A stretch of 64,000 bases of DNA from Methylocystaceae bacterium. Lineage in GTDB: Bacteria > Pseudomonadota > Alphaproteobacteria > Rhodospirillales > Terasakiellaceae. The notes beneath the pieces are model-generated. The model was not told the DNA's origin. It made no database searches and saw only the letters and a list, made by a program, of their open reading frames with translations. The DNA is taken from NCBI GenBank assembly GCA_013373205.1, contig JABXIG010000003.1, forward strand, positions 124,001-188,000. Direction: 5' to 3'. Every line of letters starts with the position of its first letter. Position 1 is the first letter of the stretch. The position numbers and the translations under genes are program-made. Below, piece after piece: positions 25,101-46,512 of the stretch.

Positions 25101-26441
25101 ATGGCAGGGATGAAACCATATCAAGAGACAGAAGCATTCTTTAGTGATTTGTTTGATGACCTGTTTCCTCTTTTAAGAAGTATCACGGGGCCGGGTCTGC
25201 GTGAAAGTTATCGTATTCTTGGACAGTACATGCCGTTTGAGAAGATGCGGGTGAATTCGGGTGAAAAGGTTTTTGACTGGACTGTGCCTGAAGAATGGCG
25301 GTGTAGCGAAGCATATCTGGAAGGTCCGGACGGTACACGTGTTGTTGATATGGCTGTATCCAATCTGCATGTTCTTAACTATTCTGCCCCGGTTGATGAG
25401 ACTTTATCGTTAGAAGATCTGCAAGCGCATTTATACAGTAATCCTGATTTGCCGACAGCTGTGCCTTACGTTGCGAGTTATTATAGTCGCAAATGGGGGT
25501 TTTGCCTAAGTCATCAGCAAAGGGAACAGCTTGATCCTGGCATGTATCGCGCGGTTATTAAAAGTGAGTTTATCCAGGGCGGTGTCGACCTTGTGCAATC
25601 CCAATTATCGGGTCAGAGCGATAAAGAAATTCTTCTGTCCTCTTATATGTGCCACCCTTCCTTGGCGAATAATGAACTCAGTGGCCCCCTTGTATTACTG
25701 GGGCTCTATCACCGAATAAAAAGTTGGAAGAGCCGACGACACAACTTTCGTTTTGTGCTTCATCCAGAAACCATTGGCAGTTTATGCTTCCTTCATCTCC
25801 ATCATGAGGAGCTGCGGAAAAATTTGGTAGGTGGTGCGGTTTTAAACATGATGGGGGGGAAGCAAACCTCATTAATGTTCAAGCATTCTGTGTTGGAAAA
25901 TGGTGTCATTGATAAAGCGGTTACACATTTATCGAAACTTGGGCATGATGTGCGCACTATGGGCTTTGACCCGAACAGTGGGGCAGATGAACGCCAGTAT
26001 GCCTCGCCCGGTTTTCAATTTCCTGTGTTGAATGTCAGTCGGGACTTTTATCCGGGATATGAAGGTTATCATAGCTCTTTGGATACCAAAGAATATATGG
26101 ATATTAAACAAATTATGCGCTCCATTGACGAGCTCGAACAGGTTCTTAAAGCGGCGGATGAATGTGTGAAATATCAAAACTTGGCCCCGTATGGTGAACC
26201 TCAGCTGGGGCCGCGCGGGTTATACGAAACGTTTTCGTATGTCGACCCAGACCTTTCGGATCAAGAAAATCGACAAAAAAGATTTGAGGAAATGTGCCGC
26301 ATTAAAATGTTGTTGACCTATTGTGATGGCAAAAATGATGCAATTGATATCGCAGAGAAATATAATTGTTCAGTTTTGGATATGAGCCAAACGATAGAAA
26401 CGCTGGAACATCATGATTTGCTCCAAATGATTAAGCTGTGA
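25101..26441 (+). CDS. DUF4910 aminopeptidase-like protein of polysaccharide loci
   Basis: This 446-residue protein resembles the family with an M28-peptidase-like core, an inserted DUF2172 domain and a C-terminal winged helix. Possible metal ligands are seen in MCHPSLANNELSGP, HPETIGS, GADERQ and YHSSLDT. The last 70 residues (MLLTYCDGKNDAIDIAEKYN onward) look like a winged helix. Members occur in polysaccharide and flagellin-modification clusters, but their substrate is unknown to me; hydrolysis or transfer at an amide bond on a sugar is a possibility. It is 25 bp from pseB and 129 bp ahead of an ACP gene, so a new translational block begins after it. A G7 run lies within it at about 25853-25859. 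Confidence 0.75.
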   Translation: MAGMKPYQETEAFFSDLFDDLFPLLRSITGPGLRESYRILGQYMPFEKMRVNSGEKVFDWTVPEEWRCSEAYLEGPDGTRVVDMAVSNLHVLNYSAPVDETLSLEDLQAHLYSNPDLPTAVPYVASYYSRKWGFCLSHQQREQLDPGMYRAVIKSEFIQGGVDLVQSQLSGQSDKEILLSSYMCHPSLANNELSGPLVLLGLYHRIKSWKSRRHNFRFVLHPETIGSLCFLHLHHEELRKNLVGGAVLNMMGGKQTSLMFKHSVLENGVIDKAVTHLSKLGHDVRTMGFDPNSGADERQYASPGFQFPVLNVSRDFYPGYEGYHSSLDTKEYMDIKQIMRSIDELEQVLKAADECVKYQNLAPYGEPQLGPRGLYETFSYVDPDLSDQENRQKRFEEMCRIKMLLTYCDGKNDAIDIAEKYNCSVLDMSQTIETLEHHDLLQMIKL

Positions 26442-26570
26442 TGCCATTCGCTAGAGGTGTAATGACAATATTTGCCATCCCCTTTTACCCGTTGTTTTGT
26501 GTTGGTGCTTCTGTTATTGATTTAAGGTGAAATCAACCTAGAATGATCCGAAAAAGTGAGAGGTAAGGTA

Positions 26571-26810
26571 GTGAATAACAAGGAAAAATACGATCAAGCA
26601 TTCATCGAGAGTTTTTCTGTTGAAGCAGATGCACTTAATGAAAACCTGACTTATCAATCAATTGCAGAATGGGATTCAGTCGGTCATATGGGATTGATCG
26701 CAGCGTTGGAAGATGCCTTCGATATCATGATGGATACAGAAGATATCATTGAGTTTGGCTCTTATACAATTGGTATCGATATTATGAAAAAATATAAGGT
26801 TGAGATTTGA
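26571..26810 (+). CDS. Acyl carrier protein 1
   Basis: This 79-residue acidic ACP begins at GTG 26571, five bases after AGGTAAGG; an upstream GTG at 26556 lacks such a site. The phosphopantetheine serine is in EWDSVGHMGLIAALED (the DS motif), followed by an acidic helix II and FDIMMDTEDIIEFGS. It is unlike the generic fatty-acid ACP (GADSLD) and belongs to the stand-alone type used with dedicated ligases. The next gene, an acyl-AMP ligase, starts at TTG inside the ACP stop (TTGA), so the two are coupled and the ligase is the probable loading enzyme. Confidence 0.88.
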   Translation: MNNKEKYDQAFIESFSVEADALNENLTYQSIAEWDSVGHMGLIAALEDAFDIMMDTEDIIEFGSYTIGIDIMKKYKVEI

Positions 26811-28231
26811 CAAACGGCTTCATTTGCCAGAACAACCCAACAGGCCTCGCCGTTGTCACTCATGACGGCACGCATATAACCTATCAGCAGCTCCTCAAGG
26901 ACGTCCACAAGAGTGCCAGCTTCCTTTTTGAACGGGAGCTGTTATTCATTGTTGGCGCAAATGATTATCCGACCCTTTTGTTTTATCTTGCGGCCCTGGA
27001 GTGTGGCGCAGTCCCGCTTATCCTGAGCGCGGATGTGGATGCACAACTGCTCACGAATTTGATCAATATTTATGCGCCGAATAAAGTTTTAATCGGGGCC
27101 TTACCAGATAGTTTGTCTACGCAATATGAAAAATGCGGGCAACATGCGGCGTTGTCACTTTTTCAACAGGTTAATCCCCGTTCGTTAGAGGTCCACCCGG
27201 ATCTTGGTTTTCTTGCGGCAACATCGGGTTCAACAGGTGCCCCAAAACTTGTTCGATTATCTGTTGAGAATTTGGTCGAGAATGCCAAATCAATTTCACA
27301 ATATCTTGAGATCGCTCAAGATGATCGGGCGATGGCCTCGCTTCCCATTAGTTATTCTTACGGCCTGTCTATTATTAATAGTCATCTTTATGCGGGTGGT
27401 TCCATTATATTGTCTAATCGCTCTATCTTGGAGCCAGAATATTGGCAGAGCATAAGGGACCATCAGGTGACGAGTTTCGCAGGTGTCCCATTTCATTACG
27501 AGATGTTGTTGCGTTTGCGCCTGGAACGATTAAATGTCCCCTCCTTACGTAAAATGACCCAGGCCGGGGGCAAGCTAAAACCCACATATATTAAAAAAAT
27601 ATACAATTCCTGTAGAGATTTAGGGATAAAATTCTGGACCATGTATGGGCAAACTGAAGCATCCCCGCGAATTTCCTATTTAGCGCCTGAAAAAACATTG
27701 GATAAGCTTTCCAGCATCGGACAGGCTATTCCGAATGGGCGCCTGTGGGTCCGAAATCAGGAGGGGGAGGATATATCTTTTACGAACCAAGTTGGCGAAC
27801 TGGTGTATGAAGGTCCGAATGTGTGCTTGGGCTATGCGGAAAGTGAACAAGATCTGTCACTGGGGGATGTAAATGATAAAAGGCTAAACACCGGGGATCT
27901 TGCACGCTGTGATGAAGACGGGTATTTCTTTATTGAAGGTCGGATGAGCCGTTTTCTGAAAATTTACGGAAACCGAATTTCGCTTGATCAGGTGGAAAAA
28001 GTTGTCTGTGCAAAGGGCATGGAATGCGCAGCCTATGGTGAGGATGACCATTTATGGGTTAGCATTGTCTCTGAAAATGCTGAGGAAACAGAAAATTTGA
28101 AGCTTGAAATTGCAAAGATTTTGGGCCTAAATTCAAAAGCAATTACCTGTGTAGAAACAACCGATCTGCCGCGAATGGCTTCAGGAAAGGTAGACTATCA
28201 ATGTCTGAAGAGGGCGATGCAGGAAGCATAA
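26807..28231 (+). CDS. Acyl-AMP/acyl-CoA ligase 1 (ANL family)
   Basis: This 474-residue adenylating enzyme starts at TTG overlapping the ACP stop. The phosphate-binding motif TSGSTGAPK is at 139-147. MYGQTEASPRISYL and LNTGDLARCDEDGYFFIEGR follow, and the C-terminal catalytic lysine motif is LPRMASGKVD. It would activate a carboxylic acid as the acyl-adenylate and load it on the neighbouring ACP or CoA. Its 3' end overlaps the LuxE-like gene by 31 bp. The acid it uses cannot be read from sequence. It is roughly 30-50 residues shorter than typical family members, with a reduced N-terminus. Confidence 0.88.
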   Translation: MTNGFICQNNPTGLAVVTHDGTHITYQQLLKDVHKSASFLFERELLFIVGANDYPTLLFYLAALECGAVPLILSADVDAQLLTNLINIYAPNKVLIGALPDSLSTQYEKCGQHAALSLFQQVNPRSLEVHPDLGFLAATSGSTGAPKLVRLSVENLVENAKSISQYLEIAQDDRAMASLPISYSYGLSIINSHLYAGGSIILSNRSILEPEYWQSIRDHQVTSFAGVPFHYEMLLRLRLERLNVPSLRKMTQAGGKLKPTYIKKIYNSCRDLGIKFWTMYGQTEASPRISYLAPEKTLDKLSSIGQAIPNGRLWVRNQEGEDISFTNQVGELVYEGPNVCLGYAESEQDLSLGDVNDKRLNTGDLARCDEDGYFFIEGRMSRFLKIYGNRISLDQVEKVVCAKGMECAAYGEDDHLWVSIVSENAEETENLKLEIAKILGLNSKAITCVETTDLPRMASGKVDYQCLKRAMQEA

Positions 28232-29286
28232 CGGACTGGCCGACCTACGGCTGGTCAGGACCTCAAAAAGAAAAGTATTTTCTTTCAGAGATGAAGCGTT
28301 TGACGCAATTGCACCGTCAGGCATGCCCGGCTTATGATAAAATTGTTGGGAAAATTGACTTTTTGTCTCAGGATATGATCTCGCTTGAAACGATACCTTT
28401 TATTCCGGTCAGGTTGTTTAAGTTACAAAAGCTGTTGAGCGTTTCCAAAGAAGAAATCATTAAAACGATGACGTCGTCGGGCACAAGTGGCCAAGCTGTC
28501 TCCCAGATTTTTCTGGATAAGCAGACCTCAGCTTTACAGGTAAAGGTTCTGGCTCGGATTATGGCTGATGTGATTGGGTCCAAACGTTTACCCATGCTGG
28601 TTATTGATTGTAAAGCAACGGTATCTGATCGTTTGCGGTTTTCAGCGCGGACGGCTGGTATCCTCGGGTTTTCAATGTTTGGGCGTCAGGTGGAATATGC
28701 GCTGGATGATGATATGACCCTGAATTTGGAGCGTGTGGAAAAGTTTGTGTCCAAACACGCAGGTCAGCCTATCCTTGTCTTTGGTTTTACTTTTATGGTC
28801 TGGCAACACCTTGTACGTACCTTAGAGGAGTCTGGACAAAAGATAAATTTGGAAGGGGCAATCCTTATTCATGGTGGGGGATGGAAGAAATTAATTTCAG
28901 ACGCTGTTGATCCACAGGAATATAAGGAACGCATAAAAAGCGTATTGAATATCAAGAAAGTTCATAACTATTACGGGATGGTTGAACAGACAGGGTCCAT
29001 CTTTATGGAATGTGAATATGGTCATTTGCATGCGTCTGCATGGTCTGATGTTATTATCAGGGATAGTCGAGATTTTTCAGTGTGCAAAGATGGTCAAACG
29101 GGGCTTGTTCAGCTTCTATCCGTCATCCCGCACAGTTATCCAGGCCATTCTATCCTGAGTGAAGATATCGGGCGGGTGCTTGGCCGTGACGATTGTCCAT
29201 GTCAACGCAAAGGAACGTATTTTGCGATTGAAGGTCGTCTGGAAAATGCAGAGATAAGAGGCTGTAGTGATACCTTTAATGGATGA
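28201..29286 (+). CDS. LuxE-like acyl-protein synthetase
   Basis: This 361-residue protein matches the LuxE/PaaK-like adenylating family. Landmarks are TMTSSGTSGQAVSQIFLD (the phosphate loop SSGTSG), ILIHGGGWKKL, KVHNYYGMVEQTGSIFMECE and a late SILSEDIGRVLGRDDCPC. The C-terminal tail contains RGCS with Cys355, matching the position of the acyl-accepting Cys near the LuxE C-terminus. LuxE activates a fatty acid and passes the acyl group to LuxC for reduction to an aldehyde. No luxA, luxB or luxD is present, so bioluminescence is not implied. It overlaps both the ligase before it and the LuxC-like gene after it. Confidence 0.87.
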   Translation: MSEEGDAGSITDWPTYGWSGPQKEKYFLSEMKRLTQLHRQACPAYDKIVGKIDFLSQDMISLETIPFIPVRLFKLQKLLSVSKEEIIKTMTSSGTSGQAVSQIFLDKQTSALQVKVLARIMADVIGSKRLPMLVIDCKATVSDRLRFSARTAGILGFSMFGRQVEYALDDDMTLNLERVEKFVSKHAGQPILVFGFTFMVWQHLVRTLEESGQKINLEGAILIHGGGWKKLISDAVDPQEYKERIKSVLNIKKVHNYYGMVEQTGSIFMECEYGHLHASAWSDVIIRDSRDFSVCKDGQTGLVQLLSVIPHSYPGHSILSEDIGRVLGRDDCPCQRKGTYFAIEGRLENAEIRGCSDTFNG

Positions 29287-30484
29287 TATTCAAGCGGATA
29301 TGAACGTGCTGGTCGGAGATCTCGCAACTCTTTCCAATCGGCCGGCCATCGCATGGGAGCCCATGAGACTGGCATTTTTGGCTGATCTTTCCAGATCATT
29401 ACTGAAACACCCCCTTTGTAAGACGATGGCGGATGTTACGACTTTTGCCTATTGGATCCGTAAAGCCAATTTGCAGACTTTGAAAGACAGGTTTACGTCT
29501 GATGCAGGGATGCAAGTTGGTGTGGGGGTGACGTTTCATATCTGTCCTTCGAATGTTGCGGTTAATTTCGCCTATTCCTTAGTTTTTGGCTTATTGGCGG
29601 GGAATACATGTGTTTTACGCCTTGCAACAAAGGAAACGCCTGTTGACAGACTTATTGTCGAGGCCATCCGTGATGTCCTTAGTCAAGCGATGTATCAAGA
29701 CCTTAAAGATGCTATTCTTTTGATGCGCTACGAGAGAAATGAAAAATTGAATGCTTACTGGCTGGGGCAGGCAGATGGGCGTGTGATTTGGGGCGGAGAT
29801 GAGACAGTCAATCACATGCGCCGCTATCAAACACCACCGCGATCCCGCGAAATTACTTTTGCGGACCGTTACTCATTTTGTGCCCTAAAACCGGACGCAG
29901 TCTTGGCGTGTTCTGAGGAGGACCTGCTGAAAATCTGTCAGAAGCTGTTTTATGACATTTATTTGATGGACCAGGCTGCGTGTTCGTCTCCTCAGTTGAT
30001 TGTCTGGGTTGGGGAACAGGACAAAATAAGGGCGGCAAAAGAAAAGCTATGGTCACTTTTTTACAGCTTTTGTCAGACACAATATGAAATCACCCCCATT
30101 CAAGTGATGAATAAGTTCAGTCAGATTTGCGTTAATGCGTCTGAATATGACGCAATTGATCAAGTTGTCAGTCATGATAATTTACTCTATCGATCACAAC
30201 TGAATGACGTTAAGAATGGTTTGGAACATTATCGGGGGTATGCGGGGGCTGTTTTAGAAGCCTCACTCTCGCATCTTTCAGAAATGGAAAAGGTGGTGAC
30301 GCAAACCTATCAAACCATGACCTATTTCGGGTTTGAACAGGTCGAACTGGAAGATTTTATGCGAACAAGTCGGGTGCGTGGGATTGATCGCATCGTGCCA
30401 ATCGGGCAAGCTGTTGATATGGATATCATATGGGATGGCTATGAAATTATTTCGAGTCTCTCGCGCCTCGTCGATATCCGTTAA
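29267..30484 (+). CDS. LuxC-like acyl reductase (aldehyde-forming)
   Basis: This 405-residue protein belongs to the LuxC acyl-CoA reductase family, an aldehyde-dehydrogenase-like fold. The catalytic cysteine motif LMDQAACSSPQ is present (Cys239). FHICPSNVAVNFAYSLVFGLLAGN and VIWGGDETVNHMR also match. It would reduce an acyl group received from LuxE to an aldehyde with NADPH. GTG 29267 is taken as start because AAGAGG lies six bases upstream; ATG 29279 is the alternative. Both overlap the LuxE-like gene. In this operon it stands beside a two-subunit transketolase, whose usual acceptors are aldehydes. Confidence 0.9.
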   Translation: MIPLMDDIQADMNVLVGDLATLSNRPAIAWEPMRLAFLADLSRSLLKHPLCKTMADVTTFAYWIRKANLQTLKDRFTSDAGMQVGVGVTFHICPSNVAVNFAYSLVFGLLAGNTCVLRLATKETPVDRLIVEAIRDVLSQAMYQDLKDAILLMRYERNEKLNAYWLGQADGRVIWGGDETVNHMRRYQTPPRSREITFADRYSFCALKPDAVLACSEEDLLKICQKLFYDIYLMDQAACSSPQLIVWVGEQDKIRAAKEKLWSLFYSFCQTQYEITPIQVMNKFSQICVNASEYDAIDQVVSHDNLLYRSQLNDVKNGLEHYRGYAGAVLEASLSHLSEMEKVVTQTYQTMTYFGFEQVELEDFMRTSRVRGIDRIVPIGQAVDMDIIWDGYEIISSLSRLVDIR

Positions 30485-30519
30485 TTTGATCTAATGATTT
30501 TTTAAACTATGGGGGCCTC

Positions 30520-30990
30520 ATGGATAAACTAACTTTGAACTGTCGCGAGCTGCAAGAGTACCAGCCCAATCGCTACCCGTTTTTGATGATAGATCATGTG
30601 GATGAGGTCGTGCCTGGTCAATATGCTAAAGGTTATAAAAACCTGACCAATAATGAATGGTACTTTCCCGTTCATTTTCCCGAAGGACCCAATATGCCCG
30701 GCGCTTTACAGCTAGAGGCACTGGCGCAGATGTTGACGGTTGCGATTACGACATTGCCCGGATTAAAGGGGAAAGTGACACACGCCTTGCAACATACCGT
30801 ACGCTTTAAACGCGAGGTGCTGCCGGGGGAAAAGCTGGATATCTCATGTGAAGTCCTGTCATGGAAACGTGGAATTTGTAAAGGTAAGGGAATTGCGTCG
30901 GTGAATGGTGAACCTGCTTGTGAAGCCGAAATGATGATCACTATTCCTGAAATTCTTGAAGAGTTTTTGCCGAAAGCAAAGGGAAAATGA
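30520..30990 (+). CDS. FabZ/FabA-like hotdog dehydratase 1
   Basis: This 156-residue hotdog-fold protein has the FabZ pattern NRYPFLMIDHVDEVVPGQYAKGYKNLTNNEWYF, read in its parts YPFLMID and KNLTNNEWYF. The catalytic His is in VHFPEGPNMPG and the catalytic Glu in LQLEALAQM. FabZ dehydrates 3-hydroxyacyl-ACP. Here a dedicated copy outside the fatty-acid genes suggests action on an acyl chain bound to the local ACP. It overlaps the GMC oxidoreductase start by 4 bp (ATGA). A second, more divergent FabZ-like gene lies in the convergent operon. Confidence 0.88.
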   Translation: MDKLTLNCRELQEYQPNRYPFLMIDHVDEVVPGQYAKGYKNLTNNEWYFPVHFPEGPNMPGALQLEALAQMLTVAITTLPGLKGKVTHALQHTVRFKREVLPGEKLDISCEVLSWKRGICKGKGIASVNGEPACEAEMMITIPEILEEFLPKAKGK

Positions 30991-32579
30991 ATAAGGCCGA
31001 TGTGCTTATTATCGGATCCGGGGCAAGTGGGGCAGCTGCTGCGTGGAGCCTAAGCAGGAATACTTCAAACCGTATCGTCTGTTTGGAACAAGGTGACGCC
31101 ACGAAAGCTGGTGACTACCCGACAAATAAAGTGAATTGGGAATTAGCACGTCATGGCACAGCCAGTTCAAACCCGAACGAGCGAAAGAATAAAGCGGATT
31201 ACCCCATTGATGACAACGGTTCCCCCATATCTTTAGCAAACTTTAACGGGTTTGGGGGGAGCACGATTTTATATTCTGGGCATTTTCCACGTTTTCATCC
31301 CTCTGACTTTGCAACATGTTCTTTGGATGGGGTCGGGGATGATTGGCCGCTGTGCTATGAGGACTTGGAACCCTATTTTAATGAAAATGAAAAAATGATG
31401 GGGGTTGCGGGTTTGGTCGGGGATCCTGCTTATCCTGAATATGACCGCTTGTTACCTCCTGTGCCTTTGGGAAAAGCTGGCCGTAAAATGGCCGAAACGT
31501 TTAACGAATTGGGCTGGCATTGGTGGCCGTCTTACAGTGCTATAAATACGTCGTCCCATGGTGGGCGGGCATCTTGTGTGAACTTGGGACCCTGCAATAC
31601 GGGCTGTGCACAAGGGGCGAAAGGCAGCGTCGATGTGACCTATTGGCCGCAGGCGCTGCGCCAAGGCGTAGAAGTGCGCACTGGCTGTTGCGTCTATGAA
31701 ATTTGTGTGGATAAATTTCATAAGATAACGGGTGTAAAGTATCTGAATGAAAAGGGTGAAGATTGTTTTATCGGGGCGAGCATTGTCGTGGTTGCTTGCA
31801 GTGGCATTGGGACGCCCCGCCTTTTGCTTAATTCTAAATCAGCAGCTTTTCCAGATGGTTTGTTGAACAATCATGATCTTGTTGGGCGAAACCTGATGGT
31901 GCATCCGCTAGGATATACCGAAGGTGTCTTTGAAGATGATCTACAATCAAGCGTAGGTCCACAAGGGTGCTGCATTTTATCCCAACAGTTTTATGAAAGC
32001 GATCCGGCAAATAAGTTCAAGCGAGGCTATACCATGCAGGTGCTACGGGGTAGTCCCGCTATGGAAACGGCAGTTTCTGCTTACATGATGCGAAGACTGC
32101 CTTTAGGCCCGGATCATCACAAAACATTCATGTCGCTTTTTAATCATAATATGGGCATTGCGGTTATATCAGAGGATTTACCGGAACATCATAATCGGGT
32201 TGAACTGGATGAACAGAATTGCGACGCAAACGGCATGCCGGGACTTAAAGTGAGTTATCGAGTGAGCGAAAATACCCAAGAGATGCTGAAACACGGTTTG
32301 GAGAAAAGCAAACTGCTCTTTCAACAGGCTGGGGCCAGGGTGACAGCGTCTTTTGCGCCGGTTAAACATGCAGGATGGCATTTGATGGGTACGGCAAGAA
32401 TGGGGAATGATCCTGAAAAATCGGTGGTCTCTCCTTTAGGGCAAGCGCATGCAGTGGAAAACCTTTTTATTGTAGATAGCAGTATTTTCGTAACCTCCGG
32501 CGCGGTCAACCCGGTCGCAACGGCGCAGGCTTTAACCCTTCGAATATGCGACCATATTCGGCAAAAGTTTGTGAACTAG
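30987..32579 (+). CDS. GMC-family FAD oxidoreductase
   Basis: This 530-residue flavoenzyme shows the N-terminal ADP-binding fold (VLIIGSGASG, residues 6-15), FGGSTILYSGHFPRFHPSDF and the C-terminal GMC block LMGTARMGNDPEKSVV then VDSSIFVTSGAVNPVATAQALTLR, read as SSIFVTSGAVNP. GMC enzymes oxidise alcohols or sugars at a primary or secondary hydroxyl. No Tat or Sec signal is visible, so it should be cytoplasmic. It is immediately followed by a small protein that may be its partner subunit, an arrangement known for gluconate 2-dehydrogenase-type enzymes. The substrate is unknown; a hydroxyl on a sugar or acyl intermediate is an inference from context. Confidence 0.87.
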   Translation: MNKADVLIIGSGASGAAAAWSLSRNTSNRIVCLEQGDATKAGDYPTNKVNWELARHGTASSNPNERKNKADYPIDDNGSPISLANFNGFGGSTILYSGHFPRFHPSDFATCSLDGVGDDWPLCYEDLEPYFNENEKMMGVAGLVGDPAYPEYDRLLPPVPLGKAGRKMAETFNELGWHWWPSYSAINTSSHGGRASCVNLGPCNTGCAQGAKGSVDVTYWPQALRQGVEVRTGCCVYEICVDKFHKITGVKYLNEKGEDCFIGASIVVVACSGIGTPRLLLNSKSAAFPDGLLNNHDLVGRNLMVHPLGYTEGVFEDDLQSSVGPQGCCILSQQFYESDPANKFKRGYTMQVLRGSPAMETAVSAYMMRRLPLGPDHHKTFMSLFNHNMGIAVISEDLPEHHNRVELDEQNCDANGMPGLKVSYRVSENTQEMLKHGLEKSKLLFQQAGARVTASFAPVKHAGWHLMGTARMGNDPEKSVVSPLGQAHAVENLFIVDSSIFVTSGAVNPVATAQALTLRICDHIRQKFVN

Positions 32580-33008
32580 ATGATGAAGTTAAAAGATATA
32601 TTTTACGATACGATTTTGCCGGGAGATCAGGATTTAAATTTGCCCGCAGCATCAAGGCTTGAGATAGATGACTATATGGCATCTGTGGGCGCAACAGAGA
32701 TGTTGGCACGCTACCTTGACTTACTTGATACACTGGCCCATGAAAAATTTAATCATGGTTTTGTGGACCTTTCAGCCGAAGACAGGTTGGCTTGCGTGAC
32801 ATTCAGCAAACGAAAAGATATAAGACTTTCAACGGCCATAATTGTAAACTGCCTAAAGTCCTACTATACTTGCGAGAGCGTTTTAAATATTTTGCCAACA
32901 GGAAGTGTCCCGCCATTTCCAGAGGGTAACGTGGTCGAAGGCGACGATTGGTCCATACTTGAAGATGTCTATGAAAGAGGGACGATTTATCGTCATATTC
33001 CTGAATGA
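32580..33008 (+). CDS. Small protein following GMC oxidoreductase (possible subunit-3-like partner)
   Basis: This 142-residue protein starts directly after the GMC stop. Its layout (KDIFYDTILPGDQDLNLPAA, a helix with a conserved DTILPG turn, then EKFNHGFVDLSAEDRLACV) resembles the gluconate 2-dehydrogenase subunit 3 family, which pairs with GMC dehydrogenases. Unlike exported members it has no Tat signal, in agreement with its signal-less partner. Similarity is weak and judged by eye. It overlaps the SDR gene by 4 bp. ATG 32583 is an equally possible start. Confidence 0.55.
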   Translation: MMKLKDIFYDTILPGDQDLNLPAASRLEIDDYMASVGATEMLARYLDLLDTLAHEKFNHGFVDLSAEDRLACVTFSKRKDIRLSTAIIVNCLKSYYTCESVLNILPTGSVPPFPEGNVVEGDDWSILEDVYERGTIYRHIPE

Positions 33009-33754
33009 CAGAAGAATCTGAAAACCTGCTACTTAAAGATCAAATCGCGATTGTCACTGGTGCAAATCGTGGGATTGGTAAAGCGGTGTGCGAAAAATTT
33101 ATGGAACATGGGGCGCAAGTGATTGCCTGTGTTCGCACAGTTTGCCCTTCCTTGCAGGAATGGGCAGAACCGCGGGGTGTCTTACATCAAGTCGAGCTGG
33201 ATTTAAGGGACGACGATGTGATTAAACAGGCAGTTAAATCGGTCCGCAGCTTATCGTCCAAGCCTGATATTTTAGTTAACTGTGCAGGCATTGCCAGCGG
33301 CGGCCTTTTTCAAATGGCTTCAATGCAGGAAATGCGTTCAGTCTTTGATGTTAACTTTTTTGGACTGATTGCCTTTAGTCAGGGGGTGTCTCGTTTGATG
33401 GCCCGCCAAAAGTCTGGGGCTATCGTGAATATATCATCGGCAACTGCGTCTTATATTGCATCTGGTACACTTTCATATGGCGCTGGTAAGGCTGCGCTGG
33501 AACGTGCCACACAAAGTATGGCAATGGAATTGGGGGCGATGGGCATTCGGGTGAATGCGGTTGCACCGGGCGTCACCCAAACCGATATGGCCGATTTGAT
33601 GGATGAACAGGCGCTAAGCGAAATGGTCAATCGTTCAGCCCTTAAAAAGGTAGCCCAACCGGAAGATATTGCCAATGCAGCTTTATTTCTGGCATCGGGC
33701 CTGTCCACACATTTAACGGGCCAGATTTTGCATGTCGATGGAGGTCTTTTCTAA
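33005..33754 (+). CDS. Short-chain dehydrogenase/reductase (FabG-like)
   Basis: This 249-residue classical SDR carries the cofactor motif TGANRGIG at 18-25, NCAG at 92-95, Ser144/145, Tyr158 and Lys162 (SYGAGK). The typical C-terminus is ASGLSTHLTGQILHVDGG. It would reduce a ketone or oxidise a hydroxyl using NAD(P)H. FabG-type activity on 3-ketoacyl-ACP or reduction of a ketol product of the neighbouring transketolase both fit; the sequence does not decide. It overlaps the genes on both sides, with ATGA at its start and a shared A at its stop. Confidence 0.92.
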   Translation: MTEESENLLLKDQIAIVTGANRGIGKAVCEKFMEHGAQVIACVRTVCPSLQEWAEPRGVLHQVELDLRDDDVIKQAVKSVRSLSSKPDILVNCAGIASGGLFQMASMQEMRSVFDVNFFGLIAFSQGVSRLMARQKSGAIVNISSATASYIASGTLSYGAGKAALERATQSMAMELGAMGIRVNAVAPGVTQTDMADLMDEQALSEMVNRSALKKVAQPEDIANAALFLASGLSTHLTGQILHVDGGLF

Positions 33755-34593
33755 TGGTCATTTCAGAAAAAATCGAAAACTTAGCCCTCTTTATGCGTCG
33801 AAAAATCATCGACATCAGCTTTCATAGTGGGACATCAACCCATGTTGGCGGCGCTTTGTCTATGACGGATATAATGGCAACGCTTTATGGACATATTCTG
33901 AATATTGATCCTCAAAACCCGACTTGGGAAGATCGCGATCGTTTTATTCTCAGCAAAGGTCATGGTGTTCTTGGGTTTTACCCGGCGCTTTTGGGGGTCG
34001 GCCTGATCAGTGAAGAAAAATTCAATAGCTTTCAAACCAATGGCAGCGATTTAATTGCGCATCCCGTGATGAATATTGATTTGGGCATTGAATCATCCAA
34101 TGGCAGTCTGGGACAAGGATTATCCATGGGGGTGGGCATTGCTCTATCTGCCAAGAAGCAGAAAAAAAGTTTTAAGACATATGTTTTGATGGGGGACGGT
34201 GAAACTAATGAAGGGTCCGTTTGGGAAGCTGTAATGTTGGCAGCACAACAGGGCTTGGATAATCTTGTTGCCATCGTTGATAACAACGCCATGCAAAATG
34301 ATGGTCAAGGGGAAGATATCATCGACAATCGTAACCTTCACAAACGGTTTGAAGCCTTTGGATGGGATGTGTTTAACATCGATGGACACGATATTACGGC
34401 ATTGATTGATGCATTCGAAACCCCAGTGCAATCAGGCAAGCCCAAAATGGTTGTTGCAAATACTGTGAAAGGAAAGGGCATTTCCTTTATGGAAGGCGAT
34501 AATGCTTGGCATCATAATCGTTTGGCACAAAGCAAGTACGATATTGCTTGGGCAGAATTGAATGAACCACTCGCGACTGAGGAGACAGTTTAA
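33754..34593 (+). CDS. Transketolase N-terminal subunit
   Basis: This 279-residue protein is the thiamine-diphosphate-binding half of a split transketolase. SKGH at 67-70, the GSLGQGLSMGVGIAL block and the TPP/Mg motif GDGETNEGSVWEA at 147-159 with NN further on are seen. It needs the C-terminal subunit, encoded by the next gene with a one-base stop/start overlap (TAATG). Transketolases move a two-carbon ketol unit from a ketose phosphate to an aldehyde. Split enzymes in biosynthetic clusters are often specialised rather than pentose-phosphate housekeeping enzymes. Confidence 0.92.
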   Translation: MVISEKIENLALFMRRKIIDISFHSGTSTHVGGALSMTDIMATLYGHILNIDPQNPTWEDRDRFILSKGHGVLGFYPALLGVGLISEEKFNSFQTNGSDLIAHPVMNIDLGIESSNGSLGQGLSMGVGIALSAKKQKKSFKTYVLMGDGETNEGSVWEAVMLAAQQGLDNLVAIVDNNAMQNDGQGEDIIDNRNLHKRFEAFGWDVFNIDGHDITALIDAFETPVQSGKPKMVVANTVKGKGISFMEGDNAWHHNRLAQSKYDIAWAELNEPLATEETV

Positions 34594-35561
34594 TGGAAAT
34601 TTCAGCGCGTACAGCAAGACAATGGGCCCGCTTGGGGCCGCGCGGTGTTTTTGGGCAGGCTGTTTTATCTATCGCTGAGAATTGTCCGGATCTGATGGTC
34701 ATGTCTGCTGATTTAGGAAGCTCGTCTGGTTTAGAGCGTTTTCGCCAGTCTTATCCTGACAGATTTTTGAATACGGGGATTGCAGAACAGAATTTAATTG
34801 GTGTCGCAGGCGGGATGGCAAAGGAAGGCTATAATGTTTTTGCCACGTCCTTTTCCCCGTTTATTGCTATGCGTGCAAGTGATCAGGTGCGTATGAACTT
34901 GGGTTACATGCAGTTAAACGTGAAGGCTGTTGCGATCGGGAGTGGGATCGGAATGGGTTTTCTGGGGAACTCGCATTTCGGGATTGAAGATGCCGCTGTG
35001 ATGCGTTCTATCCCGAATATGACGGTTGTTTGTCCCGCAGATTGTAGCGAAATTGTAAAAACTGTTCAGGCGGCGGCCAACTTTACAGGGCCAATGTACA
35101 TTCGATTGACGGGCGCACCGAATATGGCAGCTGTTTACAATGACGATTATGACTTTGAATTTGGTAAAGCGATTACATTGCGCGAAGGCAAGGATGTCGG
35201 GATTATCGCCTGTGGTGCAATGGTTGGCCAATCTATGAAAGCAGCTGACATGCTGGCTGAGAACGGCATTGAAGCAACGGTTTTGAACATGCATACGATT
35301 AAGCCGTTGGATAAAGCTGCCTTGTCTAAATTAGCGACAACTGTGCCAAGGATTGTTACGGTTGAGGAGCATTCCGTCATTGGTGGATTGGGGAGTGCGG
35401 TTGCAGAATATTTTGCTCCACACGGGCAGCGCCCGGCCCATAAATTAATCGGTATTCAGGATAAATATATCAAAACAGGCGAGTATGGTTATATGCTTGA
35501 ACAAGAAAAACTGGATGCGACATCTTTGTGCGAAACGATATCTGCTTTTCTTGAGTCGTAA
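34593..35561 (+). CDS. Transketolase C-terminal subunit
   Basis: This 322-residue partner contains the pyrimidine-binding domain with the catalytic Glu65 in NTGIAEQNLIGVAGGMA, ATSFSPFIAMRASDQVRM, and a C-terminal transketolase domain ending in the VTVEEHSVIGGLGSAVAE segment, read as EEHSVIGGLG. Together with the preceding subunit it should give a complete thiamine-diphosphate enzyme. DXP synthase-like or pyruvate-dehydrogenase-like chemistry cannot be excluded, but the lengths and motifs fit transketolase best. The nearby LuxE/LuxC pair offers a source of aldehyde acceptor. Confidence 0.92.
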   Translation: MEISARTARQWARLGPRGVFGQAVLSIAENCPDLMVMSADLGSSSGLERFRQSYPDRFLNTGIAEQNLIGVAGGMAKEGYNVFATSFSPFIAMRASDQVRMNLGYMQLNVKAVAIGSGIGMGFLGNSHFGIEDAAVMRSIPNMTVVCPADCSEIVKTVQAAANFTGPMYIRLTGAPNMAAVYNDDYDFEFGKAITLREGKDVGIIACGAMVGQSMKAADMLAENGIEATVLNMHTIKPLDKAALSKLATTVPRIVTVEEHSVIGGLGSAVAEYFAPHGQRPAHKLIGIQDKYIKTGEYGYMLEQEKLDATSLCETISAFLES

Positions 35562-35564
35562 TAT

Positions 35565-36482
35565 ATGATGATAGATAAGCTGAATGATGATTGCGCTTTA
35601 GAAGTTGAAAAGCTGGTCAAGGAAGTTCTTCCTTTTTTTAAAGAGAGAGCGAATGGCGTTTTTTGGCTATCGCTTGACTTCAGGACCATGTTGCTGACCT
35701 TGAAGGTGCCCGCGAAGCAAGCTGAAGAATTTACAGATTATTTTATGAAGCAGTTGTTGATAGCGGTTGGTCCGCAAGCAACTATTCTTGTACCTGCCTT
35801 TAATCTGGAATTTCCCAGCTCAAAAGAATTCGATGTCACAACAAGCGGCACCATGACGGGTGCCTTTGGTGGGCTTTTGGTCAAACGCTATCCCGTAAAA
35901 CGACTGGCCCATCCTTTCTATTCTTTCTTGGCCTTTGGTGAAAAAGCTCCTGAATTCCTGCGAAAGAAATTTCCTCATAGTACGGGGCCGGGCTCTGTTT
36001 TTGAATGGATCATGGATCATGAAACTCAGTTGATTGTTATCGGCCATCATTATGTAAAATCTTTGACGAATGTGCACCATGCAGAAGATCTTGCAGGTGT
36101 TAAATACCGTTACAGAAAGCCTTTTAAAGGTACTGTCATTGATGCAGAGGGACGAGCGATGCAAACCACTTGTTCGTTTTTCGTACGTGAGCTTGAAACG
36201 TGTGATTTTTCGTCTGTCACAGAGCGTGGTGATCGGATATTAAGGCAGAAAGATATCGTTCGTGCGCTTTATGTCAGCCAGTTTGATCGTCATTTTATAA
36301 TTTACACACTTAATTTGACGGAGCTTCATGACCTTTTCATGAAGGATCTGGAACAGGTTGAACCTGAGCTGATAGACTACTTTGGGCCCCAGCGTGAAAA
36401 TGTGGATGTGATTACAGCAAAAGTGGCCGATCAACTCTATAGTCGCGAGCTTGGTTATTTTAAAAATCAGCTGTCAGCTTGA
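35565..36482 (+). CDS. AAC(3)-family N-acyltransferase
   Basis: This 305-residue protein has the fold pattern of aminoglycoside 3-N-acetyltransferases (YokD/AAC(3) family). Visible are ILVPAFNLEFP, SGTMTGAFGG, RLAHPFYSFLAFG at 113-125, and TNVHHAE at 168-174, which fits the family TxxHxxE active-site motif. The family transfers an acyl group from CoA or a carrier to an amine. In a nonulosonate locus the natural substrate is more likely an aminosugar than an antibiotic. The N-terminus is less conserved than usual. It is the last gene of the plus-strand operon and overlaps the end of the convergent hydrolase gene by 16 bp; no terminator is seen between them. Confidence 0.82.
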   Translation: MMIDKLNDDCALEVEKLVKEVLPFFKERANGVFWLSLDFRTMLLTLKVPAKQAEEFTDYFMKQLLIAVGPQATILVPAFNLEFPSSKEFDVTTSGTMTGAFGGLLVKRYPVKRLAHPFYSFLAFGEKAPEFLRKKFPHSTGPGSVFEWIMDHETQLIVIGHHYVKSLTNVHHAEDLAGVKYRYRKPFKGTVIDAEGRAMQTTCSFFVRELETCDFSSVTERGDRILRQKDIVRALYVSQFDRHFIIYTLNLTELHDLFMKDLEQVEPELIDYFGPQRENVDVITAKVADQLYSRELGYFKNQLSA

Positions 36483-41746: not shown

Positions 41747-41989
41747 TTAATCCATTTTATGCGAAATAACGTCGGCGAGGGTTGAAATAACCCTTATATC
41801 GGGGTTGGCGAGCTCTTGCGGCTGGAATTTGATATTGAATTCACTTTCAATGGTCATGATGAAATTTAAAATTTCAAATGAGTCCAACAATCCACATTCC
41901 ACAAAGTTTGTTGATCTACTCAGTGGTTCGTTCAAGTCGGGGGTATGATCGGATATGTAGTCAAAAATGAATTGTTCGATGGTGTTCAT
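41747..41989 (-). CDS. Acyl carrier protein 2
   Basis: This 80-residue ACP has the phosphopantetheine serine in CGLLDSFEILNFIM (LDS motif) and an acidic composition. The C-terminal part reads FNIKFQPQELANPDIRVISTLADV, like carrier proteins that serve stand-alone ligases. Its start overlaps the pseI stop by 4 bp, and the ligase follows four bases after its stop, so the ACP-ligase pair is tightly coupled to the sugar genes. It is distinct from ACP 1 at 26.6 kb. Confidence 0.88.
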   Translation of the reverse strand: MNTIEQFIFDYISDHTPDLNEPLSRSTNFVECGLLDSFEILNFIMTIESEFNIKFQPQELANPDIRVISTLADVISHKMD

Positions 41990-43038
41990 GAAATAACATC
42001 CCAGTCTAGTCTGTCACCAACTTCAAGGTCACGATTGGCTTTTTTATTAAGGATAATTTTTTTAAATTTTGGTTCAAGCCCCAATCCGGGCCGGACGGAT
42101 TTGATGTTGTCTTCACTAAAGGCCTCGCCAGCTTTAATCGCACGGCTGACATAGAGAGAGCGCCGACCATTTTTATTTTTGCTGGCTTCGGGTGTGAGAT
42201 CGTATTTGACTTGACCAACGGCGAGTTCAGCGCGACGAATTTCCGTAATCATATTTTGGAAATCTTGTGGAGTGAGAGAGAAAAAACTATCGACCGTTTC
42301 GTCTTCGTTATTTAATTTAACATGTTTTTCAATGACTTTGGCGCCAAGAGCAACTGCTGCAATGGATACACCTATGCCTATTGTGTGATCTGATAACCCG
42401 GCATAACAGCCAAAGGTTTCTTCCAAATTTTTAATGGTTTTTAGGTTTACTTCTTCTGGTGGCGTTGGATAGGCCGTTGTACATTTTAAGAGAATAATAT
42501 CGTCGCAACCATGTTCACGCAGACAGCTTACCGCGTCGTAGATATCACCAATATTGGCCAGTCCTGTTGAAACAATGACGGGCTTTCCTGTAGCAGCTAC
42601 TTTTTCTAATAAGGCTGTGTCTACAATTTCAGGAGAGGCGATTTTATAAGCTTTACAGTTGTATTTCTCTAATTCATCAACGGAAGTGACATCAAACACA
42701 GACCCGAAAAGTTCAACGCCTCTTTGTTGAGCAGCTTCGAATAATGCAGGAAACCATTCCCAAGGGGTATGGGCATATTGGTATAAATTGTAGAGGTTTT
42801 CATATGCAGCCCACGCATTGTCCTGCGGAATTTTAAAATCACCGTTACTGGTGTTCATGGTGATTGTATCGGGGGTGTAGGCTTGCAGTTTTATGGCATC
42901 CGCTCCTGCATCGCAGGCGGCATGGAGAAGGTCTAAGCATTTGTTAAGGTCCCCCCCATGATTGCCTGATAATTCTGCAATGATATAAGTTTCTTCGTCT
43001 AAGCCAATACGTTTATGACCGATGGAAATATGTTTCAT
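41986..43038 (-). CDS. pseI: Pseudaminic acid synthase PseI
   Basis: The start ATG 43038 overlaps the upstream stop (ATGA) and gives 350 residues with GGAAA upstream; ATG 43068 is less likely. The NeuB family motif IIAELSGNHGGDLNKC, DAIKLQAYTPDTITMN, GLSDHTIGIGVSIAAVALGAKVIEKH (read as LSDHTIGIG) and the C-terminal SAF domain with SVRPGLGLEPKF are seen. AYTPD and the SVRPGxGL ending fit PseI better than NeuB or LegI. It condenses phosphoenolpyruvate with the 2,4-diacetamido-hexose released by PseG to form pseudaminic acid. Confidence 0.9.
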   Translation of the reverse strand: MKHISIGHKRIGLDEETYIIAELSGNHGGDLNKCLDLLHAACDAGADAIKLQAYTPDTITMNTSNGDFKIPQDNAWAAYENLYNLYQYAHTPWEWFPALFEAAQQRGVELFGSVFDVTSVDELEKYNCKAYKIASPEIVDTALLEKVAATGKPVIVSTGLANIGDIYDAVSCLREHGCDDIILLKCTTAYPTPPEEVNLKTIKNLEETFGCYAGLSDHTIGIGVSIAAVALGAKVIEKHVKLNNEDETVDSFFSLTPQDFQNMITEIRRAELAVGQVKYDLTPEASKNKNGRRSLYVSRAIKAGEAFSEDNIKSVRPGLGLEPKFKKIILNKKANRDLEVGDRLDWDVIS

Positions 43039-44183
43039 TGCTCGGTTTCCTTTGAAAGAGAAATCCAATTTTTCTGTTTATTCGCTCGTGCCGCGCCAGT
43101 AAGTAACGTCAATCCTTCGTGGGCATGTTCCCAGCCAAAGACATAGGGGTTGGTGTGACTCCCTGTTGCCGTAAATTCTTCATATGCATCCGCAATATCG
43201 CTATATAAATTGGCAAAAGCTTCAACAAAGCCACCTGGGTGACCGGGTTTGAAGCGATCGCGGATGACGTCGGGGTGTTTACAATTGCCGCGATCATAGG
43301 TTATCCGGCTTGTATCTTTCTGGAAGATATGAAGCCGTTCCGGTTCTTCCTGAAGCCATTCAGCGCTTGCCTTATCACCGAATAAACGTAATTTTAAACC
43401 GTTGCGATACCCGAGGGCTGACTTGCTAACCCACATGGAAGCCCTGAAATCCTGTTCAAATTTCACCCATAAATAAGCATCATCGACAATGTTATCAAAA
43501 ATACTGTCATGGTGGAAGTCTGCGTTGACGTGAGCGGGTTTCAAACCATTCGTGACAAAGCTACACAGATGATGCACATGAACAGCCAGATCTAATAAAA
43601 TCGTTGGAATTTCCCCATCGCTGAGCCGCCATTCTTGAGGTTTCATTTTTTCCTTATCTTGTATAAACGCATCCGAAGGCATCTCGATTTGAATTTGTGT
43701 GAGCTTGCCAAGAGTGCCTTCTTGAACATGACGTTGGAGATCGCGCAAAAGAGGATAGCCGCTGTAATTGAACGTAACGGCTAAAAATCCTTTGGTTTTT
43801 GATAGGCTTTCTTGGATTTGACGGGACTGGGCCAGATTTGCGGTCATGGCTTTTTCGCAAATAACGCCAAGACCGGCCTCTAACGAAGCGCACACGATGT
43901 CATGATGATGAGGGGTAGGCGTCAGAACGACAACCGCATCAAGGTGATCTTTTTCCTTGGCAATGAGTTCTTGCCAATCGAGATAAAGATGGTTTTCTGG
44001 AATATTCCACGCTTGGGCTGTTGACATATTTTCTTGCGCGTTACGACTAAAGCAGCCGGCAACCACTTGCCATCTTTGGTCAAGTTGACAGGCTGACCAA
44101 TGCGCATAACCAACAGCTGAGGAAAGTGCACCGCCAATAAAGCCCAGACGTAAGGTCTTTTGATGTAAAGATGGAAGGTTCAT
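43035..44183 (-). CDS. Gfo/Idh/MocA-family oxidoreductase
   Basis: This 382-residue protein has the N-terminal dinucleotide fold (LRLGFIGGALSSAVGYAH), the family block VVVLTPTPHHHDIVCASLEAGLGVICEKAM with the EKAM(P)-type motif, and the C-terminal GFO_IDH_MocA substrate domain. The family oxidises or reduces sugar or inositol hydroxyls with NAD(P). In surface-glycan loci such enzymes make altered sugars; here it may act on a nonulosonate precursor or on another sugar of the glycan. It sits between the pseG fusion and pseI, with 4-bp overlaps on both sides, so its product is probably made with them. Confidence 0.87.
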   Translation of the reverse strand: MNLPSLHQKTLRLGFIGGALSSAVGYAHWSACQLDQRWQVVAGCFSRNAQENMSTAQAWNIPENHLYLDWQELIAKEKDHLDAVVVLTPTPHHHDIVCASLEAGLGVICEKAMTANLAQSRQIQESLSKTKGFLAVTFNYSGYPLLRDLQRHVQEGTLGKLTQIQIEMPSDAFIQDKEKMKPQEWRLSDGEIPTILLDLAVHVHHLCSFVTNGLKPAHVNADFHHDSIFDNIVDDAYLWVKFEQDFRASMWVSKSALGYRNGLKLRLFGDKASAEWLQEEPERLHIFQKDTSRITYDRGNCKHPDVIRDRFKPGHPGGFVEAFANLYSDIADAYEEFTATGSHTNPYVFGWEHAHEGLTLLTGAARANKQKNWISLSKETEQ

Positions 44184-46470: not shown

Positions 46471-46512
46471 GACGCTACCTCATGATCTTGGTTTCTACCA
46501 GCAAATGAGCTT

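Follow-up and report, generated by a model that had tools for sequence, protein, structure and literature searches.

Why would a flagellin glycosylation island carry the acyl-reducing genes known from bioluminescence operons beside a split transketolase (TK)? The island lies in a 64,000-nucleotide stretch from a Methylocystaceae bacterium (GCA_013373205.1, contig JABXIG010000003.1, positions 124,001 to 188,000 of the forward strand; hereafter the window, with positions counted from its first letter), where a LuxE-like acyl-protein synthetase and a LuxC-like acyl reductase share one gene run (26556–36482) with the N- and C-terminal halves of a TK (TK-N and TK-C). A previous sequence-only reading of the window had proposed that LuxE and LuxC make an aldehyde to which the TK adds a two-carbon ketol, yielding a hydroxyketone- or diol-bearing side chain. 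Our analysis partly supports this interpretation, leaving it plausible, strengthened and unproven: we see about an even chance that the run makes an unusual acyl group for an amino position of the flagellin pseudaminic acid, with the TK extending the LuxC aldehyde.

A gene run combining acyl reduction with a split transketolase

All genes of the run are encoded on the forward strand with short or no gaps between them, in the following order:

26556..26810, +: acyl carrier protein (ACP1); ACP model E 1.4e-5, under the cut-off; Ser41 of the DSxGHM motif in 71/71 homologues
26807..28231, +: AMP-forming acyl ligase 1; PF00501, 149.9 bits; TTG start
28201..29286, +: LuxE-like acyl-protein synthetase; PF04443, 193.7 bits (cut-off 24.9); profile matches LuxE of 7xc6
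29267..30484, +: LuxC-like acyl reductase; PF05893, 91.1 bits (cut-off 21); profile matches the reductase of 7xc6
30520..30990, +: FabZ-like dehydratase; PF07977; NF000582, 122.4 bits (cut-off 113)
30987..32579, +: GMC oxidoreductase; PF00732, PF05199; nearest solved structure the large subunit of fructose dehydrogenase (PDB E 7e-43)
32580..33008, +: small GMC partner, 142 aa, weakly Gluconate_2-dh3-like; Pfam 20.3 bits (cut-off 23.4)
33005..33754, +: FabG-like short-chain dehydrogenase/reductase (SDR); PF13561, 192.4 bits
33754..34593, +: TK-N, binding thiamine diphosphate (ThDP); PF00456, 163.8 bits (cut-off 22); 6yak N chain, E 5e-59
34593..35561, +: TK-C; PF02779 (Transket_pyr), 125.9 bits (cut-off 27), and as second domain PF02780 (Transketolase_C), 96.2 bits (cut-off 25.9); 6yaj, E 2e-65
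35565..36482, +: AAC(3)-type N-acyltransferase, candidate for acyl transfer; PF02522, 62.7 bits; AAC(3) structures, E 1e-5

LuxE, LuxC and both TK halves are intact open reading frames (ORFs) with Pfam scores above the cut-offs, and had been named correctly from the sequence alone. The two cysteines pointed out in that reading are also conserved: among homologous ORFs of at least 300 aa, the acyl-accepting Cys355 near the C terminus of LuxE is invariant in 89/89 and the catalytic Cys239 of LuxC in 88/88, eight of the latter being LuxC parts of fusion proteins. Between these genes and the TK, a GMC oxidoreductase, its possible partner and an SDR had been described. The GMC enzyme (H465 and N508 in 6/6 homologues) and the SDR are confirmed, together with the FabZ-like gene, but the partner is matched only below the cut-off. 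Five of seven homologues of the latter, window copy included, match Gluconate_2-dh3 at E ≤ 0.01. Its AF2 model (pLDDT 80.5) returned nothing in Foldseek at E ≤ 0.001 or in VIA-align at Z ≥ 5, and a PDB profile search gave nothing under E 0.13. ACP1 had no match in the Pfam scan. The ACP and AMP ligase genes opening the run, the acyltransferase gene closing it and the flagellin glycosylation setting are additions to the earlier picture.

Among the 30 window proteins scanned by Pfam, which do not comprise all window ORFs, we found no ketosynthase, no iron-containing alcohol dehydrogenase and no luciferase (luxA/luxB) family, the rest of the genome not having been searched for luciferase. The first and last of these agree with the sequence-only reading, and in an island of this kind a luciferase is not expected. 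Bioluminescence as the function of the run was rejected on account of this setting and of the scores against the NCBIfam long-chain equivalogs, which LuxE (70 bits, cut-off 550) and LuxC (36 bits, cut-off 750) miss by far.

Linkage of the transketolase to LuxE

A scan with the LuxE alignment yielded at least 593 stretches, of which 529 are relatives, and the best 80 (L014–L093) plus five loci found by the window gene order form our set of 85 LuxE loci. Neighbouring genes were counted in the 63 loci where LuxE is flanked by 5 kb or more in each direction, excluding the 22 with less than 5 kb on one side. ORF families 5, 6, 9, 15, 18, 29, 31 and 43, which overlap known genes in other frames, were uncounted, and newly met neighbour families were named by Pfam from one member each. 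Within 8 kb of LuxE, AMP ligase 1 is found in all 63 loci, ACP1 in 59, LuxC in 57 (fusions uncounted) and an SDR in 47. TK-N (n = 33), TK-C (n = 32) and the TK pair (n = 32) are the next most frequent, followed by FabZ (n = 23), DegT (n = 23), a NeuB-like synthase (n = 18; the family includes ordinary PseI/NeuB-type genes), a NeuD-type acyltransferase (n = 14), a thioesterase (n = 13), an acetolactate-synthase-like enzyme (n = 12), ketosynthase III (KSIII, n = 8), a lactate/malate-dehydrogenase-like enzyme (n = 8) and GMC (n = 6). Counting all 85 loci, 38 encode a total of 42 TK pairs, with the nearest LuxE always on the same strand (42/42). In 32 of these 42 pairs an SDR lies directly upstream of TK-N, suggesting that the SDR probably acts on the product or the donor of the TK. 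Six loci (L014, L015, L016, L018, L019 and L036) contain the complete window-type block, including FabZ, GMC and the small partner. The TK pair and the NeuB-like synthase occur together in four of the 63 loci, a distribution that serves as a lead only (Fisher p 0.005, kinship ignored).

Linkage was also assessed in two samples chosen regardless of it, 385 genomes of the window's class and 200 genomes of the family of a Butyrivibrio locus. In the class, where typing covered the 30 best of the TK-C places listed, a TK-C of the LuxE-associated kind is present in three genomes (E ≤ 1e-90, a line set afterwards in a clear gap, the next match being 1.8e-72). All three also encode LuxE, which occurs in 10/385 genomes; the two genes share a contig in the window genome and in G451 and lie on two short contigs in G350. 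The next 26 fetched class rows that entered the tree described below all fall outside the LuxE-associated clade. In the Butyrivibrio-locus family, TK-C was detected in 4/200 genomes at E ≤ 1e-75, a threshold at which weaker clade members may be missed, and all four carry LuxE (11/200 overall) on the same contig at distances of about 2, 4, 16 and 26 kb. With the query genomes excluded, 2/2 and 3/3 TK-C genomes have LuxE, which a random draw would give with chances of 5e-4 and 9e-5, respectively (kinship ignored). The reverse tests thus agree with the 32/63 loci in showing that LuxE/LuxC and TK co-occur in other genomes. The converse fails, as LuxE is frequently found without TK.

A tree was built from 93 TK-C sequences, L198 and L199 not included, and 44 of its 45 LuxE-associated rows form one clade (support 100/99). 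The members belong to Pseudomonadota, Bacillota, Melainabacteria, Synergistota, Elusimicrobiota, Bacteroidota and Planctomycetota, and metagenome bins are frequent among them. For L159, one of the 45 rows, LuxE is encoded in the same genome on another contig, and the clade also holds one unlinked sequence, L155 (present twice). This LuxE-associated TK clade across seven phyla and the linkage in the reverse tests are new.

The LuxE loci vary in their remaining gene content. A LuxE-LuxC fusion of 763–795 aa is encoded in eight loci (L031, L037, L049, L059, L061, L070, L074 and L089). A thioesterase (PF00975) lies within 8 kb of LuxE in 16/85 loci, directly upstream in L035; lux operons are likewise accompanied by the thioesterase LuxD. 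In ten loci (L011, L022, L025, L048, L049, L057, L074, L076, L092 and L093), FabZ, an acetolactate-synthase-like ThDP enzyme and a NeuB-like synthase follow each other, and a TK pair was seen in none of these. NeuB enzymes, too, catalyse carbon-carbon bond formation. Between the window and L014–L019, FabZ is much more conserved (78–88%) than LuxC (36–51%).

An altered acceptor site

Using E. coli TktA numbering, with letters checked at 17 positions, the window TK pair keeps the cofactor-binding and catalytic residues H26, H66, H100, G114, D155, E160, N185, H261, E411 and H473, and all three TK domains (PF00456, PF02779 and PF02780) score above cut-off across the two halves. The acceptor site differs: in E. 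coli TktA, H461 binds the phosphate and D469 the C2 hydroxyl of the acceptor, and these residues are replaced by glycine and leucine, respectively, in the window TK-C. Both are replaced in 43/43 LuxE-linked TK pairs, as well as in the further pairs L159, L160, L178, L179, L180, L195 and L200 (on the L090 side), with the catalytic E411 and G114, E160 and N185 retained in 43/43. H100 and D155 are variable in the linked pairs, H473 is a leucine in two, R358 and S385 are also absent in some, and position 385 is occupied by F or Y in 12/43. For comparison, TKs encoded elsewhere in the same genomes were searched for 27 of the 80 named loci, mostly long ones; judged by coordinates, TK-C lies inside the LuxE locus or borders on it in 22 of these. 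Twenty other TK places were fetched, and later two more plus the L090 edge, leaving out weaker, mostly full-length or DXS-like matches. Of these other split TKs, 18/22 keep both H461 and D469 (18 of the first 20).

The loss of H461 and D469 fits a non-phosphorylated aldehyde as acceptor, and hence the ketol transfer suggested previously; the acceptor of the LuxE-associated TK is probably not a sugar phosphate. A laboratory counterpart is the E. coli TK variant S385Y/D469T/R520Q, evolved from phosphorylated towards aliphatic and then aromatic aldehydes, in which Y385 would clash with the phosphate (PMC5073344). If our reading holds, the natural change of the acceptor site resembles this directed evolution at positions 385, 469 and 520. 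R520 was rejected as a diagnostic position, as it is a glycine in 41/43 linked and in 16/20 other split TKs. The predicted TK-C model (pLDDT 65.7) was not used. The window genome encodes another four Transket_pyr proteins (657-, 647-, 1007- and 461-aa frames), so the TK of the run is not its sole TK.

The surrounding pseudaminic acid island

The genes flanking the run are:

18233..19150, +: flagellin; PF00669, PF00700
21971..24028, +: Maf flagellin glycosyltransferase; PF20157, PF01973
24044..25075, +: PseB, UDP-GlcNAc 4,6-dehydratase (inverting); TIGR03589, 535 bits (cut-off 407.75)
25101..26441, +: DUF2172/DUF4910/HTH_47 protein; PF16254, PF09940, PF16221
36467..37615, -: DUF2920 protein, alpha/beta hydrolase-like; PF11144
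37666..41989, -: second acyl block of FabZ-like dehydratase (PF07977), medium-chain dehydrogenase/reductase (PF08240/PF00107), FkbM methyltransferase (PF05050), AMP ligase 2 (PF00501/PF13193) and ACP2 (PF00550)
41986..43068, -: PseI, pseudaminic acid synthase; TIGR03586, 445 bits (cut-off 340.25)
43035..44183, -: Gfo/Idh/MocA oxidoreductase; PF01408
44180..45772, -: PseG with a C-terminal extension; TIGR03590, 174.3 bits (cut-off 153.55)
45769..46467, -: PseF, pseudaminic acid cytidylyltransferase; TIGR03584, 307.6 bits (cut-off 205.7)
55598..56734, +: PseC aminotransferase; TIGR03588, 428.6 bits (cut-off 423.5), at G000:C59:179601-180725

With all five of PseB, PseC, PseF, PseG and PseI above their curated NCBIfam cut-offs, this is almost certainly a pseudaminic-acid flagellin glycosylation island. 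The stretch with flagellin, Maf and PseB upstream of the run also encodes a glycosyltransferase-41-like protein, and FlgK, FlgI and an FlgE-type protein are encoded downstream. From its domain names, we take the DUF2172/DUF4910 protein to be a candidate N-deacylase of the Cj1295 type. The divergent second acyl block suggests another acyl group on the same glycan.

A possible route to an unusual acyl group

In known systems, LuxC and LuxE convert an acid to an aldehyde. On the simplest view, the same reduction would take place here: AMP ligase 1 would load a small acid onto ACP1, LuxE would activate a carboxylate and hand the acyl group to LuxC, and LuxC would reduce it to the aldehyde. In place of reduction to an alcohol, the dedicated split TK would then transfer a two-carbon ketol to this aldehyde, a step for and against which we see similar odds. 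The ketol donor could be hydroxypyruvate, since this is accepted by the split enzyme of Carboxydothermus. Fructose dehydrogenase oxidises a hydroxyl to a ketone, and the SDR together with the fructose-dehydrogenase-like GMC pair might adjust the hydroxyl/keto state, while FabZ may dehydrate. Finally, the DUF2172/DUF4910 protein may free the amino group of pseudaminic acid, onto which the AAC(3)-type enzyme would place the acyl group, an order copied from the Cj1295 model in Campylobacter jejuni (PMC3068675). We favour a dicarboxylic acid as substrate, held by ACP at one end and reduced at the other, because no re-oxidation would be needed later. The product is probably an N-acyl group decorating the sugar. 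If the route is correct, flagellin pseudaminic acid should have a mass of about 420.17 or 436.17 Da instead of 316.13 Da (arithmetic), corresponding to an acyl of C6H10O4 or C6H10O5 derived from succinate or malate.

A wider version of this idea can only be put forward tentatively, namely that the TK lineage of the seven phyla is dedicated to a two-carbon, ketosynthase-free extension of ACP-linked acids via LuxE/LuxC aldehydes, with other islands swapping in the acetolactate-synthase-like/NeuB-like pair as the carbon-carbon-forming enzymes, and that the products are surface sugars bearing polyhydroxy or hydroxyketone acyl groups. If true, a central-metabolism enzyme has been recruited in many phyla for the side chains of surface sugars, gene lists published as "fatty acid" or "liposugar" genes become a pathway with predicted glycan masses, and the clade is a source of natural carboligases for non-phosphorylated aldehydes.

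Several observations weigh against extension of the LuxC aldehyde by the TK. As LuxE was the criterion for choosing the main loci, their linkage is favoured by sampling, and the reverse tests, which are free of this bias, rest on few genomes. Neither TK nor a NeuB-like enzyme occurs in 17/63 loci, so the TK is dispensable for LuxE/LuxC. The LuxE-linked TK of L069 falls outside the clade. Conversely, the TKs of L155, L198 and L199 have no LuxE in the available stretch, their genomes carrying it elsewhere. L155 (20 kb; LuxE of this genome at L086) encodes an SDR, TK-N, TK-C, a metallo-beta-lactamase-like protein, ACP1, AMP ligase 1 and KSIII, as well as FabD-like and carboxyltransferase-like proteins read from the sequence by eye; in L199 (a 4.6-kb contig) the TK adjoins an SDR, KSIII and DegT, and in L198 (the first 8 kb of a contig) FabZ, an SDR and ACP1. 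L198 (G/L at 461/469) and L199 (A/Q) are two of the four exceptions among the other split TKs, which slightly weakens both the main reading and its wider version and slightly favours the "liposugar" alternative below, and the pairs of L155 and L199 share A and Q at these positions next to SDR and KSIII. Furthermore, of 27 TKs from class genomes in which LuxE has no match, 21 are missing H461, D469 or both, several of them in sugar clusters. The loss of these residues is thus weakened as a signature of the module, and is no proof that LuxC makes the acceptor. A TK acting on pentose phosphates alone, which would contradict ketol transfer to the aldehyde, is made less likely by the loss in 43/43 linked pairs, but the same loss in TKs without LuxE tempers this point. 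Flagellin (2/63) and a window-like Maf (1/63) are rare at distances of up to 8 kb from LuxE. The module is therefore a general one for surface sugars, and its flagellar setting is one case, not the rule. In the parts of the literature consulted, we saw neither a substrate nor an enzyme assay nor a glycan structure reported for any cluster with a TK. That ketol transfer replaces normal chain elongation, as suggested earlier, is not true in general, given KSIII near LuxE in 8/63 loci and beside the TKs of L155 and L199.

Among alternative explanations, the strongest, although unlikely, is that the TK makes or branches a sugar by transferring a ketol to a sugar intermediate such as an NDP-sugar, with ACP, AMP ligase, LuxE and LuxC making the acyl group separately and the genes being adjacent only since both decorate one glycan. 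LuxE-free split TK pairs indeed adjoin DegT, PseB-like and epimerase-like genes, some with G/L at 461/469. However, the LuxE-associated TKs form a clade separate from the sugar-cluster TKs (44/45 rows, support 100/99) and track LuxE in two reverse tests.

Less probable still, LuxE and LuxC might yield an aldehyde or alcohol destined for a lipid-like "liposugar" chain, with the TK only giving a two-carbon unit to ACP, for which the glycolyl-ACP formation of some antibiotics is a model. This would match the fatty-acid reading of published authors (PMC4875605, PMC7874193 and PMC7575072) and the KSIII genes beside the two similar TKs of L155 and L199. Against it stand the low long-chain equivalog scores of LuxE and LuxC (70/550 and 36/750 bits) and the 30 window proteins scanned by Pfam, none of which matches the 2-oxoacid dehydrogenase E2/lipoyl families. 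Finally, an oxidative LuxC, turning the aldehyde left over from ketose cleavage by the TK into an acyl thioester for transfer to ACP, is compatible with its aldehyde-dehydrogenase-type fold but very improbable, as LuxC is accompanied throughout the loci by LuxE (fused in eight), which activates acids with ATP in known lux systems, and thioesterases occur near LuxE in 16/85 loci, like LuxD.

Relation to known systems

Returning to the extension of the LuxC aldehyde, we read the run as an acyl-reduction pathway of the Vibrio cholerae O1 tetronate sort in which a TK replaces the alcohol dehydrogenase. The tetronate pathway is itself described as putative (Morona 1995, as cited in PMC3441752), and we take RfbL/WbeL to be its AMP ligase and presume that the region includes an ACP. 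The window has AMP ligase, ACP, LuxE and LuxC together, as in a tetronate-type pathway. By gene descriptions, not homology, the V. cholerae region encodes RfbN (VC0251), a fused acyl protein synthase/acyl-CoA reductase, along with RfbL/WbeL (471 aa) and the acetyltransferase VC0252, and the tetronate is an N-acyl group of an amino sugar (PMC3441752 and PMC9201469). In contrast to the window, it has the iron-containing alcohol dehydrogenase VC0250 in place of the TK pair, and the sugar is the perosamine of the O-antigen, not flagellin pseudaminic acid.

Flagellin islands with LuxE, LuxC, ACP, FabG and AMP synthetase have been described in Aeromonas group II (98 strains; PMC7874193), and enterobacterial flagellin islands contain LuxE in 73 and LuxC in 80 strains (PMC4875605). 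Their gene content (ACP, FabG, AMP synthetase or CoA ligase, LuxE and LuxC) resembles that of the window, and such sets were interpreted as fatty acid genes for a possible "liposugar" (PMC4875605, PMC7874193 and PMC7575072). Unlike in the window, transketolase is a word absent from the main texts of both papers (PMC7874193 and PMC4875605). For A. piscicola AH-3, a pseudaminic acid derivative of 376.14 Da and an end moiety of 102 Da were reported (PMC7874193). By our arithmetic, replacing one acetyl of Pse5Ac7Ac (316.127) by C4H6O3 (102.032) gives 376.148; the reported masses may thus reflect a dihydroxybutyryl, i.e. tetronyl, composition, although other compositions fit too.

The pairing of LuxE/LuxC with TK is already in print as a gene list, luxC-luxE-fadD-tktA-tktB in Dickeya zeae (PMC4522980, PMC6206727 and PMC7575072). 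Like the window, this cluster combines LuxC, LuxE, AMP ligase, a TK pair, SDR and ACP beside flagellin genes, but the published list contains no FabZ, GMC or small partner, and a DegT/VioA amino sugar takes the place of pseudaminic acid. An apparent Dickeya-type cluster, L195, was found in the one genome with TK-C at E ≤ 1e-60 among 119 genomes of an L092-related family. It encodes, in this order, LuxC, LuxE, AMP ligase, TK-C, two SDRs, ACP, a NeuD-type protein and DegT, next to a sigma factor that we read as fliA; its TK has A/F at 461/469, and the TK-N frame is not listed because a longer overlapping ORF masks it. Among the open PMC papers listed by our searches, which leave subscription papers uncovered, none puts forward aldehyde-plus-ketol chemistry for these genes in its title or abstract opening; the mechanism, if true, is new.

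Two further systems bear on individual steps. The split TK of Carboxydothermus hydrogenoformans (6YAK/6YAJ), the nearest solved sequence to both window halves, is active in an alpha2beta2 form and works with hydroxypyruvate as well as bulky aldehydes (PMC7661550). Unlike the window TK, with G and L at the aligned positions, it retains the His and Asp. C. jejuni likewise places a non-acetyl N-acyl group (di-O-methylglyceroyl) on flagellin pseudaminic acid, with Cj1295 proposed to free the amino group and the N-acetyltransferase gene Cj1296/7 in the same locus, but the consulted part of that paper mentions neither LuxE/LuxC nor TK for this locus (PMC3068675).

Further observations

AAC(3)-like and DUF2172/DUF4910-like genes accompany LuxE/LuxC in L014 and L162, the latter without TK. 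Lactate/malate-dehydrogenase-like genes lie near LuxE/LuxC in L023, L025, L032, L035, L047, L048, L050, L051, L060, L086, L087 and L088. The L035 copy has, by eye, an arginine at what we take to be the Gln102 site of lactate dehydrogenases, hinting at a dicarboxylic substrate; the L060 copy points the other way, with L-lactate dehydrogenase as its best NCBIfam match (292 bits, cut-off 303.55). LuxE relatives are present on 34 of 72,556 plasmid records. In the window island, PseG is a protein of 530 aa, of which the TIGR03590 model spans residues 3–280. The first ATG, GTG or TTG in the PseF frame (45769–46479, reverse strand) is an internal ATG at 46002, and the frame without a usual start codon upstream of it suggests either a rarer start codon or a sequence error.

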